Shown: positions 43,525 through 47,423 of the stretch, one piece after another
Layout: every line of letters starts with the position of its first letter
Numbering within the stretch: the first letter of the stretch is position 1
Virus record (IMG/VR): IMGVR_UViG_3300035701_000059
Location: 1-47,683 of that record
Strand: one strand, 5' to 3'
Length of the DNA stretch: 47,683 nt
From: a virus
Translations under genes and position numbers: made by a program
The notes under the pieces: model-generated
Database searches by the model: none
What the model saw: the letters and a program-made list of their open reading frames with translations, nothing else
Told to the model about the DNA's origin: nothing

Positions 43525-43740
43525 CTTCGCTTGACCTATTCAATGCCCGTATCAGCGAAGAAGGAGGTTTGGGAAGACTTTAGGAAAAGTCGTAATCATT
43601 GACCACGGGGGTAATAAACAATCAATAAAAGATAAACAGCCCCGCTATTCTGGTCATGCCTTAGCAAAATATATTGCTAAGAACCATCTAAACTGCAAAA
43701 AATTGACATGCTCTCTCATATATTATAAATCAATGGTTCT
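43525..43740 (-). ncRNA. Candidate structured RNA between polymerase module and virion genes
   Basis: Read on the minus strand, this stretch holds five stems in a row: AGAACCAT/ATGGTTCT (43733-43740 with 43680-43687), TTAGCAA/TTGCTAA (43674-43680 with 43661-43667), TGACCA/TGGTCA stacked with CCCCG/CGGGG (43651-43656 with 43600-43605; 43640-43644 with 43606-43610), GACTTT/AAAGTC (43586-43591 with 43576-43581) and CTTCGCT/AGCGAAG (43554-43560 with 43525-43531). No protein with a ribosome binding site fits here. It could be a regulatory leader of the late genes or a separate RNA. It is not a tRNA. The first stem includes the last codons of the upstream gene. Confidence 0.55.
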
Positions 43741-44562
43741 AAACGTCTCCTTGTTTTTTTTGTGCTTATTTCGCCATCTGGCTTTTCTTCTTCTTTCTAA
43801 TATTATAGAATGTTCTAAACAAGTTCTTTGCCTATTGGATTTTTTTATAAATTCTTTTTTACAAATAATGCATTTTCCTAGTATTTTTGGGTATTCAGAT
43901 TTTTTGTTTTCAAAAAGGATACTATAAAGATTTATTAAATTATTTAAATCGCTAATTATTATTTCTTTATGGGGGGTTTTATCAATAAAATCTAGGCGTA
44001 TTAGTTCTCTTTCTGCATTATAAAAAGTAAAATAAGTTTTATATTTGTAAAGGATATCGGCTAAATCAGTTTCGCTGACATTGCTTAATCTGGACAGTCT
44101 GATAATATCTAAAAAGTTATTATAATGAATATAATAATTCTCTGAAGCTTTCAAGTTAGATTTATCTTTTTTTACGCTTCCCTTTTTTAAGGCTTTAGAG
44201 AAAACAAGTATGGAAAATAAAAGTTTTCTTTCTTTGTTATTATTAATAAGTTTTATTAAATCTATTTCTTTTTGAGAGATAGATACACTATCTATTTTTC
44301 GTAAGTTGTACCTAAGTGCCGAACGCACCCATTTTTTTATTGAATCTGCTTCCGTGACCGGGTTAAAACTTTTGTCCTGCATTTTGCAGAACTTTATTAT
44401 TTCTCTTTCTAAACGAATTTCTCCGAGGTCGTGGGTTTGGCGAATAAATTTTGCAACCAGATACATTTTGCTGTAGTCAATGTTTCCGTCGGGGAAACCA
44501 TTGTTGAATATTTCTTGGGCATCTTTTTCCTCATCGAATGAAAATGATTTTTTGTTCCGCAT
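43723..44562 (-). CDS. Zinc-finger protein partner of the phage polymerase
   Basis: The start at 44562 (MRNKKSFSFD) is chosen because GGAGG lies 7 bases upstream; the product has 279 residues and overlaps the polymerase end by 32 bases. It is charged and helical, with a possible winged-helix or helical region around residues 140-200. Near the C-terminus it has GKCIICKKEF and RQRTCLEH, a Cys4-like or Cys3His finger, followed by a basic RRRKARWRNKHKK tail that should bind nucleic acid. The overlap with the polymerase gene suggests the two are made together, so it may be a promoter-recognition or processivity factor for it. That role is inference; the family is not recognised. Confidence 0.7.
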   Translation of the reverse strand: MRNKKSFSFDEEKDAQEIFNNGFPDGNIDYSKMYLVAKFIRQTHDLGEIRLEREIIKFCKMQDKSFNPVTEADSIKKWVRSALRYNLRKIDSVSISQKEIDLIKLINNNKERKLLFSILVFSKALKKGSVKKDKSNLKASENYYIHYNNFLDIIRLSRLSNVSETDLADILYKYKTYFTFYNAERELIRLDFIDKTPHKEIIISDLNNLINLYSILFENKKSEYPKILGKCIICKKEFIKKSNRQRTCLEHSIILERRRKARWRNKHKKNKETFRTIDL

Positions 44563-47296
44563 ATAATTCCTCCAACGAAAATTCTTTAATGGAATATTTA
44601 GAGAAAAGATATTCGATATTCCCGTTATCATCTTGAATAGGCATTTGTATAGTACCAGAGGACTTAAGGATTATATTTTCAAAGATACCATCGGGAAACA
44701 TTTTCCATGCAAAATCAACCATTGTTTTTTCTGCCCCATAGGTTACTTCGATAGCATAATCGGCAAGTTCAGAATCATTTGAACTGATTTCTAGATTGCA
44801 TTTCTTGCGTAAATAGTGTATAAAGGAGTCCAGATTTCGATAAGAGTTGTTTAAGTCGTGCCTTAAACTTTGTTTAAACGCTTTGTATTCTTGGAGAGCG
44901 GTGTTCATTAGAGTGAGTTTGTCTTTATTAAAATTGTGCTCTCCGCTTTGCAAAAGCGTATAGTCAAAATTCTCAGACGATTTTGTGGTATATTTTCCTA
45001 TAAGGGATAGATTGGCTCGCATGTATCTACTGATACGATTAACAACAGAACTATTGTCAAGGAAGAAAGAACGTTCGTTATATTCTTCAACCATTGTTTC
45101 CTCTTCTTTTGGTCTCTTATTAGTACGTAGTATTTCACCAAATGATTTTTTAAAGGCGAGATGGCTATAAATATTATATTTTTTAATTTCTTTGTTATAT
45201 CTGCTCATATAGTGGGGATATAGGAAACGGAAAAATGCCGGGCGTATATCGCACAAGATACGGTTATTAAATTCCCATTTGGCTCTTTCTTCGGGGGTCA
45301 TATCTTCTGTTATTTTTTTGTACTTGGTCCAATGTTCACGGAAAGGTGGTACTTTTAAGCCCTTTACCCCATCAATAATTTCTCCTTGTATTACTCTTCC
45401 TATCTTTAGTCTGTTCAATAATGTTTCTTGCTCATCACTTCCCATTGGAAATTTTTCCAGCATGCTATATATTGAACTGGATATATTGGTAGCAAACCCG
45501 ACTTTACTATTATAGCCGTTTAATTGAGTTTCGACTTGTTTTTGGTCATTTCTAGAATCAACAATTGCTTTCTCAGCTTTTTTGCTCTCATAGACAATGG
45601 GTATTCCCTGTATTCTGCCTTTAAGCATGGTATCATTATTAATCGTGCAGATTAAATCACCATCAAAATCGGCTCCTCCGTGAATAGCACAATCCATTCC
45701 TATACCATTGGCGGGAAAAATGATACCGCTGTGAATATATTTGAACCATTCTTTTGTATCTTTTCTGTCTTGTAAATCGAGTACGTTAAATTCAGAGTGG
45801 TGTACAATTGGGCTGCGGATAGCACATATTTTATTTATTCCTTTTTCTAACCAGTATTCAGAATAGTGTTCTCCGTCTTTTAATAGGGGTTCATGGTTAA
45901 TGTTAAAAATATGGCAAGCTTGATAAAATGGGTCGGCTACCATGAATTGATAATTGGCATTTATTAAAAGACTACCCATATAAGATTCTTTTTTCTTTTT
46001 ACTGATGGTTTTTAAAAACCTGTTTTGAATATATTTATCTTTAGCAAGTTCCGGGTTCAATAAAATAGCTTTAACAGAAATGTCCGATTTTCTAAATTCT
46101 TTTAAATTAAAAGCATGCTCTCCGGTAGCATAAAGAAGCATGTTTTCAGGATTATCCCCACTAACATCTCTGAACCATAAAATTGTAGGTTCACATAGGT
46201 TTGCTATATCGGCGTCGTTTAAATCTAAAACTTGTAAAAATTGGTAACTGGTACGCGAATAGGATTTTTCTTTTTTTTGATTGACCTTAGCAATAGAGAA
46301 ACCCAATCCGTTTTTTTGGCATTTTTTGACATAATCATCCGTATTAACATAAGCATCTGATAGCTTGAACATTGACTCTGAGATAATAAGGTCAATATTT
46401 CGCACGTCTTGAATTTTTCCATAAATATCCTTAAAGGTATAGGCTTTGGCTATTTCATTGGCGAATTTTTCAATATCAAAAACAGTAACGAGTCCTTTTG
46501 TAAATGGCGCACGGATAATGGCGCAACTAAAAATGTAATCCAGTTCTAATTCTGCGCTCCATTGTTTTGCAAGTTTTGGAGTTATCAAGCCTTGTCCATC
46601 CCACGCGTTTGCAATTAATTTATAATCATTTTCTTCAACTTTATCGTCTATGTCAATTCCTTGATAAGTTACAAAATCAACATGGCGTATAGCTTCTATT
46701 GTCTTATCGGGTACGATAGCAAATCTCGGGAATGATACAGGTAAAGTTGATGAACTGTATAACGAAAAATACGCACCGAATTTAGCTGTTACCATTGGTA
46801 CGTTTTCATCCCTATCGTTTTCAAGGATATCCATCAGAGGATGTTTAATATTATTATTTATAAATAAGGCGGTGTTACGCCTTATCATTCCTGCACTTGC
46901 TATAAACGGGGTGAATCTTATTCCGTTTATATAGAATCCGTGTTTTTTTAAAATTGTTAAGTAATGAAGTTTGTTTTTAAACTCGATACTTATAAGGTCT
47001 TCAACAAATAATATTTTTTCAATTTTTTCTGTGGTATTTTTAAGTTTCTCACGGTTTTTTTCAGTATTTTCAGCCTTTCTGAGCTTTTTTTGTAAAACTA
47101 GTAGATTTTCAAGCTCATTTTGGTCATATTTTATATTTTTGAAGTGAAATAATGCTCTTAATAGTTCCGAATCATTAATTGTTATAACTTCTGAATTAAT
47201 TCTAGCGTTATCAAGAGAAATATCTATAGAATAGTTGCTTTTTTTAAGTCTGTCTGATGAGAATTTTAATATCCAAAATTGTTGTAACTTCTTTAT
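44531..47296 (-). CDS. Single-subunit YonO-like phage RNA polymerase, AUA start
   Basis: A 921-residue RNA polymerase of the double-psi beta-barrel (multisubunit-like) type, related to YonO of phage SPbeta (about 900 residues) and to the DxDGD RNA polymerases. The catalytic loop GADFDGDL lies at 45656-45670 (Asp543, Asp545, Asp547) and supplies the Mg-binding aspartates. Other shared tracts include IRAPFTKGLVTVFDIEKFA and WDGQGLITPKLAKQW. The first ATG is residue 137, but the frame is open upstream with protein-like sequence, including FYINGIRFTPFIASAGMIRRN across that ATG. At the top, AGGAGGT lies 4 bases before an ATA codon; an in-frame TAG lies just before it, and no ATG, GTG or TTG occurs between. 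So AUA is the likely start. It probably transcribes the late genes. Confidence 0.88.
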   Translation of the reverse strand: MKKLQQFWILKFSSDRLKKSNYSIDISLDNARINSEVITINDSELLRALFHFKNIKYDQNELENLLVLQKKLRKAENTEKNREKLKNTTEKIEKILFVEDLISIEFKNKLHYLTILKKHGFYINGIRFTPFIASAGMIRRNTALFINNNIKHPLMDILENDRDENVPMVTAKFGAYFSLYSSSTLPVSFPRFAIVPDKTIEAIRHVDFVTYQGIDIDDKVEENDYKLIANAWDGQGLITPKLAKQWSAELELDYIFSCAIIRAPFTKGLVTVFDIEKFANEIAKAYTFKDIYGKIQDVRNIDLIISESMFKLSDAYVNTDDYVKKCQKNGLGFSIAKVNQKKEKSYSRTSYQFLQVLDLNDADIANLCEPTILWFRDVSGDNPENMLLYATGEHAFNLKEFRKSDISVKAILLNPELAKDKYIQNRFLKTISKKKKESYMGSLLINANYQFMVADPFYQACHIFNINHEPLLKDGEHYSEYWLEKGINKICAIRSPIVHHSEFNVLDLQDRKDTKEWFKYIHSGIIFPANGIGMDCAIHGGADFDGDLICTINNDTMLKGRIQGIPIVYESKKAEKAIVDSRNDQKQVETQLNGYNSKVGFATNISSSIYSMLEKFPMGSDEQETLLNRLKIGRVIQGEIIDGVKGLKVPPFREHWTKYKKITEDMTPEERAKWEFNNRILCDIRPAFFRFLYPHYMSRYNKEIKKYNIYSHLAFKKSFGEILRTNKRPKEEETMVEEYNERSFFLDNSSVVNRISRYMRANLSLIGKYTTKSSENFDYTLLQSGEHNFNKDKLTLMNTALQEYKAFKQSLRHDLNNSYRNLDSFIHYLRKKCNLEISSNDSELADYAIEVTYGAEKTMVDFAWKMFPDGIFENIILKSSGTIQMPIQDDNGNIEYLFSKYSIKEFSLEELYAEQKIIFIR

Positions 47297-47423
47297 GCTA
47301 ACCTCCTATATTTCCGGGTTTAATGGATTTGGTAAGTTATTATTTTTTATATAATTGTTATAGGCTTTGCTGCTTTTGTTATATTTTTTATTGTTTATTT
47401 TATTCTCTGTGGAGTATATTTAT

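Follow-up and report, generated by a model that had tools for sequence, protein, structure and literature searches.

An extended frame behind an ATA codon

At which codon does translation begin when the reading frame of a phage RNA polymerase gene extends far upstream of its first ATG, and what does that codon imply for the expression of late genes? The question arises from a stretch of viral DNA of 47,683 nucleotides (hereafter the window), in which an open frame of 921 codons plus stop, encoding a YonO-like single-chain RNA polymerase, occupies positions 44531–47296 of the minus strand; its start region reads TAG GAG GTT AGC ATA AAG AAG TTA CAA. The sequence-only reading of this locus had described AGGAGGT 4 bases before an ATA, an in-frame TAG just upstream and no ATG, GTG or TTG between, all of which proved right. 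On the minus strand, the ATA lies at 47294–47296 and the AGGAGGT Shine–Dalgarno (SD) sequence at 47301–47307, with a spacer of 4 nt (TAGC) and a duplex energy of −12.0 kcal/mol, and the TAG at 47306–47308 overlaps the SD, thereby excluding an in-frame start further upstream. No in-frame ATG, GTG or TTG was found before codon 137, and none in any frame within about 60 nt upstream of the ATA; codons 2–136 are unreachable from any canonical start. The first in-frame ATG, codon 137 (46886–46888, minus strand), is the choice of a standard gene caller, and the SD energy at this position is negligible (−1.7 kcal/mol).

Among about 210 genes of the window and four close contigs, a mechanical search for a strong SD before ATA, ATC, ATT or CTG where no good canonical start was present returned the window polymerase, its orthologue in the contig of the relative L002 (with ATC), one weak case and nothing else. 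Stop read-through or frameshifting from an upstream start was rejected for the window because no ATG, GTG or TTG lies nearby in any frame, and translational coupling was rejected because no upstream frame overlaps the gene.

Conservation of the amino-terminal segment and of the start site

The 136 codons that had been described as protein-like (46889–47296, minus strand) would be missing if the first ATG were the start. Residues 2–136 align without gaps to four IMG/VR relatives (L002–L005) at 71–77% amino acid identity, and the alignments of the whole polymerase, with identities of 77% (L002), 72% (L003), 70% (L004) and 69% (L005), begin at residue 1, so that the alignment proposed earlier as a check came out in favor of the extended protein. 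Relative to L002, the closest of these, dN/dS is 0.13 for codons 2–136 and 0.07 for the rest of the gene. Two PHROG phage protein families match the polymerase starting at residue 2 or 7, and the AlphaFold model has pLDDT values of ∼85–96 across the 136 residues. Judged by sequence conservation and the model, residues 2–136 are real protein under purifying selection, with a confidently predicted fold, and a start at codon 137 would be expected to cost the polymerase a folded segment. A start search restricted to ATG, GTG and TTG truncates such polymerases, in the window to 785 aa.

The homologous start codon is ATA in the window, ATC in L002 and TTG in L003, L004 and L005, in each case with an SD and an in-frame stop close by. 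With an identity of 77%, L002 carries ATC at this site behind the same SD; the ATA is thus no isolated base-call error, and the sequencing error that had been named as a possible refutation is unlikely. The element TAGGAGGTTA..AT[A/C]AAG is common to the window and L002, indicating that the AUH start is probably older than the split between the two. The window gene shows several sequence features of genes with native AUH starts, namely AUA, AUC or AUU at a conserved start position without a usable AUG, GUG or UUG, a strong start-proximal SD (AGGAGGT, −12.0 kcal/mol) and a conserved non-canonical start. Here AUH is common to the window and L002, and none of the five close relatives has AUG, although AUH as such does not extend to the whole family. 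Given the lack of another start, the strong SD and the conserved amino terminus, translation of the window polymerase very probably initiates at the AUA, as had been proposed.

Out-of-frame ATGs occur near some of these starts. In L002 (190–260), one with its own SD opens a 15-codon frame that overlaps the ATC polymerase start, and in L058 and L103 such ATGs are also found at most 20 nt from the start, perhaps as competing starts.

Identity of the polymerase

The gene had been assigned to YonO-like RNA polymerases with a DxDGD motif, and the analysis agreed. PF05183 (RdRP) matches the window polymerase with E=5.5e-15, PHROG 8308 covers residues 2–906, the BUCT082 RNA polymerase (UAW07825.1) is 32% identical over 98% of the length, and SPBc2 YonO is 25.7% identical at 50% coverage (E 5e-16). 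The catalytic motif is DFDGD (residues 543–547; 45656–45670, minus strand; within GGADFDGD), which conforms to DxDxD, and D543, D545 and D547 of the catalytic triad are invariant in 16 relatives. An AlphaFold model of the full polymerase (pLDDT 85.9) aligned in Foldseek to QDE-1 and RDR2 over about 880 columns (matches 7w82, 7rqs and 5fsw; best E 6.5e-18). QDE-1 and RDR2 are eukaryotic enzymes whose fold agrees along almost the entire length, but they act in RNA silencing and share only 10–15% identity. With both the sequence homology and the QDE-1/RDR2-class fold that define the group, the product is, by homology and predicted structure, a YonO-like single-chain RNA polymerase. A search of solved structures by sequence gave no match, and a search of the genome collection gave nothing with the window protein and only four Bacillaceae loci with a broader profile.

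YonO of Bacillus phage SPbeta, an essential protein that is produced once SPbeta has been induced and on which 37 late genes depend (PMC5467207), resembles the window polymerase in being a single-chain RNA polymerase with a DxDxD motif and a non-ATG start (TTG in the SPBc2 record), but differs in its annotated length of 839 aa and in its identity of ∼26% across half the protein. The BUCT082 polymerase, like that of the window, has a similar length (924 aa), a non-ATG start (TTG) and a following neighbor gene of similar size, but its start overlaps the stop of the upstream gene, whereas the window polymerase has no overlapping upstream frame. The length of 921 codons, earlier taken to fit a YonO group of about 900 residues, agrees with the ∼920 aa typical of the BUCT082-like branch nearest the window and not with the 839 aa of SPbeta YonO.

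The window polymerase gene heads a same-strand block with portal, head and terminase-like genes, and from this position upstream of the structural block it is predicted to transcribe the phage late genes. Compared by portal protein, the closest isolate phages have a clostridium, Enterocloster, as their host. In the gut phage L007 (MT835481.1), the polymerase gene is interrupted at the catalytic DxDGD by an insert resembling an intron with an HNH-type homing endonuclease, and in the Enterocloster phages CB457P1 and CB473P1 the polymerase match also stops around the DxDGD motif.

Start codons across the polymerase family

Polymerase genes were collected by profile searches of viral contigs and genome contigs, together with annotated phages, and clustered at 90% identity. 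The 49 dereplicated clusters comprise 35 with TTG, 8 with ATG, 2 with GTG, 2 with ATC (L002 and L058), 1 with CTG (three contigs, L103, L105 and L130) and 1 with ATA (the window); L058 was scored as ATC because its sole nearby TTG lies 16 nt from the SD, and L106, with TTG-ATG in tandem, was scored as TTG. Background genes in ten of these phage contigs, obtained with the same kind of mechanical caller, start with ATG in 457 cases (82%), with TTG in 75 and with GTG in 27, and the polymerase ratio of 8 ATG to 41 non-ATG deviates from them with a Fisher p of ∼1e-20, clusters being taken as independent though partly kin. The gene that immediately follows the polymerase in these same phages served as a matched control. 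In the window, this gene (43723–44562, minus strand; ∼279 aa) overlaps the end of the polymerase gene and has an ATG start with an SD of −9.3; it is present in 10 of 14 phage contigs tested, and ATG is its start codon in 43 of 55 clusters, a share that differs from that of the polymerase with a Fisher p of ∼1e-10, again with partly kin clusters taken as independent. Because the clusters share ancestry and start codons are partly inherited, these p-values overstate the evidence. In the subclade of the window, none of the 14 clusters has ATG.

In a held-out sample of 11 distant YonO-like genes, drawn from about 795 genomes that belong to the same phylum and order as a Bacillaceae host, 5 start with TTG and 6 with ATG, so that non-ATG starts exceed the background (p 0.04), much more weakly than in the near family. 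Together with the TTG of SPbeta, this suggests that AUG is strongly avoided in the BUCT082-like branch and moderately so in YonO proper. On the tree, the ATG state needs 7 changes, indicating that ATG was regained several times and that the gene can do without a weak start; the codon thus shifts, yet without AUG coming to dominate. Weak starts are a trait of the gene family as a whole, with the ATA of the window as an extreme case. The usual direction of start-codon evolution is toward AUG. In prokaryotes, switching from UUG to AUG (0.0174) exceeds the reverse (0.0018) about ten times (PMC5622118). No report of a start-codon bias in YonO-like genes was found in the YonO paper (PMC5467207), which does not discuss the start codon, or in the open-access literature searched.

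Such a distribution could arise if demand for the polymerase were low and selection on its start codon relaxed, so that the codon is free to drift and TTG, ATA, ATC and CTG persist by tolerance, not because they are favored. The start codon does change state 12 times in all on the tree, and ATG, GTG and TTG all occur in the family. However, drift in an AT-rich genome predicts ATG about as frequent as TTG and GTG at about half, against the observed 8, 35 and 2, and the downstream neighbor in the same phages retains ATG. The SD, rather than having decayed, is stronger than average, with a median of −11.1 kcal/mol in the family against −9.2 kcal/mol in the background (p 3e-7), which fits either compensation for a weak codon or the need for a strong SD to mark such a codon as the start. 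We therefore consider relaxed selection a rather unlikely explanation.

Other unusual starts were seen in these phages. In SPbeta-like phages (L015, L079 and relatives), TTG starts are frequent too in the gene that immediately precedes the polymerase (6 of 9 clusters). On a YonO-phage contig, a gene for a PhoH-like ATPase (L166:10674–11484) has an apparent ATT start behind GGAGGTGTGAT, a candidate non-canonical start. In a 173-aa frame that follows AAGGAG (L159:5210–5735, minus strand), ATA is the only SD-supported start, with an out-of-frame ATGATG nearby and a frameshift possible.

Promoter, leader and comparison with known AUA starts

A consensus host promoter, TTGACA-17-TATAAT, lies about 150–220 nt upstream of the start in L002, L003 and L004, and the end of the L005 contig falls inside it; in the window, the 387 nt that precede the polymerase contain no clear copy. 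A near-identical TTGACA-17-TATAAT with TGTGGTATAAT is repeated several times in L061, L064, L065, L069, L071 and L073, where it occurs near tRNA genes and also before the polymerase; it was not found in the window. In all five close relatives, and in several other phages (window:47297–47683; L002–L005, L009, L010 and L012), the contig ends about 225–490 nt upstream of the polymerase gene, in some cases at or inside its promoter. Repeats as the cause were rejected, as there are no 16-nt repeats at these ends and no terminal repeats, which makes a physical genome end near the polymerase gene possible.

Three potential regulatory features were rejected. A structured leader hiding the SD is not supported, as the window leader folds no better than shuffles (z +1.26); a conserved leader element in the window and its relatives does not rise above shuffles; and a phage-encoded initiator or AUA-reading tRNA was not found, the window having no tRNA and the scanned relatives only Trp and Ala tRNAs.

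Native AUA and AUU starts are known in Bacillota from infC, ccpN and cvfC1, where they combine a strong start-proximal SD, conservation among relatives and reduced yield; in Staphylococcus aureus, infC and ccpN have AUA starts, each with an extended SD, and ccpN reaches 10–30% of AUG (PMC13009471). These are cellular genes, whereas the window gene encodes a phage polymerase from a weak-start family that mostly uses UUG. In two clostridia, AUA and other weak starts gave 40–100% of AUG with one 5′ UTR and 5–20% with another (PMC9680021), and with the nearest isolates infecting Enterocloster, the AUA penalty may be mild in the window phage. The earlier suggestion that AUA lowers production of the polymerase thus gains indirect support, by analogy with the S. 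aureus yields and from the avoidance of AUG in the family.

Alternatively, the start might act as a conditional switch, with IF3 discriminating against AUA and AUC, so that more polymerase would be made when the IF3:ribosome ratio or the growth state of the host shifts in the course of infection. IF3 modulates such codons, and the efficiency of the ccpN AUA shifts with the medium from 10% to 30% of AUG (PMC13009471). However, most of the family uses UUG, a canonical start, leaving such a switch possible for AUH members, and the window has neither a conserved leader element nor leader structure; we give this explanation a slim chance. An artefact, with either a true ATG changed to ATA by a base-call error or translation from codon 137, is very improbable, because although the window is a single metagenome contig and ATA is one base away from ATG, this codon is ATC in an independent orthologue and TTG in three more, codons 2–136 are under purifying selection, codon 137 has no SD (−1.7), and truncation removes a well-folded segment.

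A strong SD with a weak start codon

The probable explanation, drawn from sequence comparison and analogy, is that the mRNA is bound strongly through its SD but carries a weak start codon favored by selection, a combination that would hold down or postpone production of the late-gene polymerase. The strong, accessible SD would let initiator fMet-tRNA read the AUA of the polymerase, and the same SD, together with the consensus host-type promoter of the close relatives, would make the polymerase mRNA available early. The sub-optimal start codon, mostly UUG and in a few members AUA, AUC or CUG, would cap the rate of initiation, and the resulting slow accumulation of polymerase would switch on the downstream structural genes late. 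On the most economical reading, AUA can serve as a start because of the strong SD, and the codon itself keeps the yield down; we infer both initiation at the AUA of the window and selection for low or delayed dosage.

It is also conceivable, though quite unlikely, that the start codon is a late-gene timer, in which a strong early promoter and SD are restrained by UUG or AUH, the efficiency depends on IF3 and host state, and the late program is released once a threshold in the ribosome/IF3 balance or in the mRNA level is passed. For the family at large, the retention of non-AUG starts across very distant phages suggests a selected restraint on translating the polymerase of the late program.
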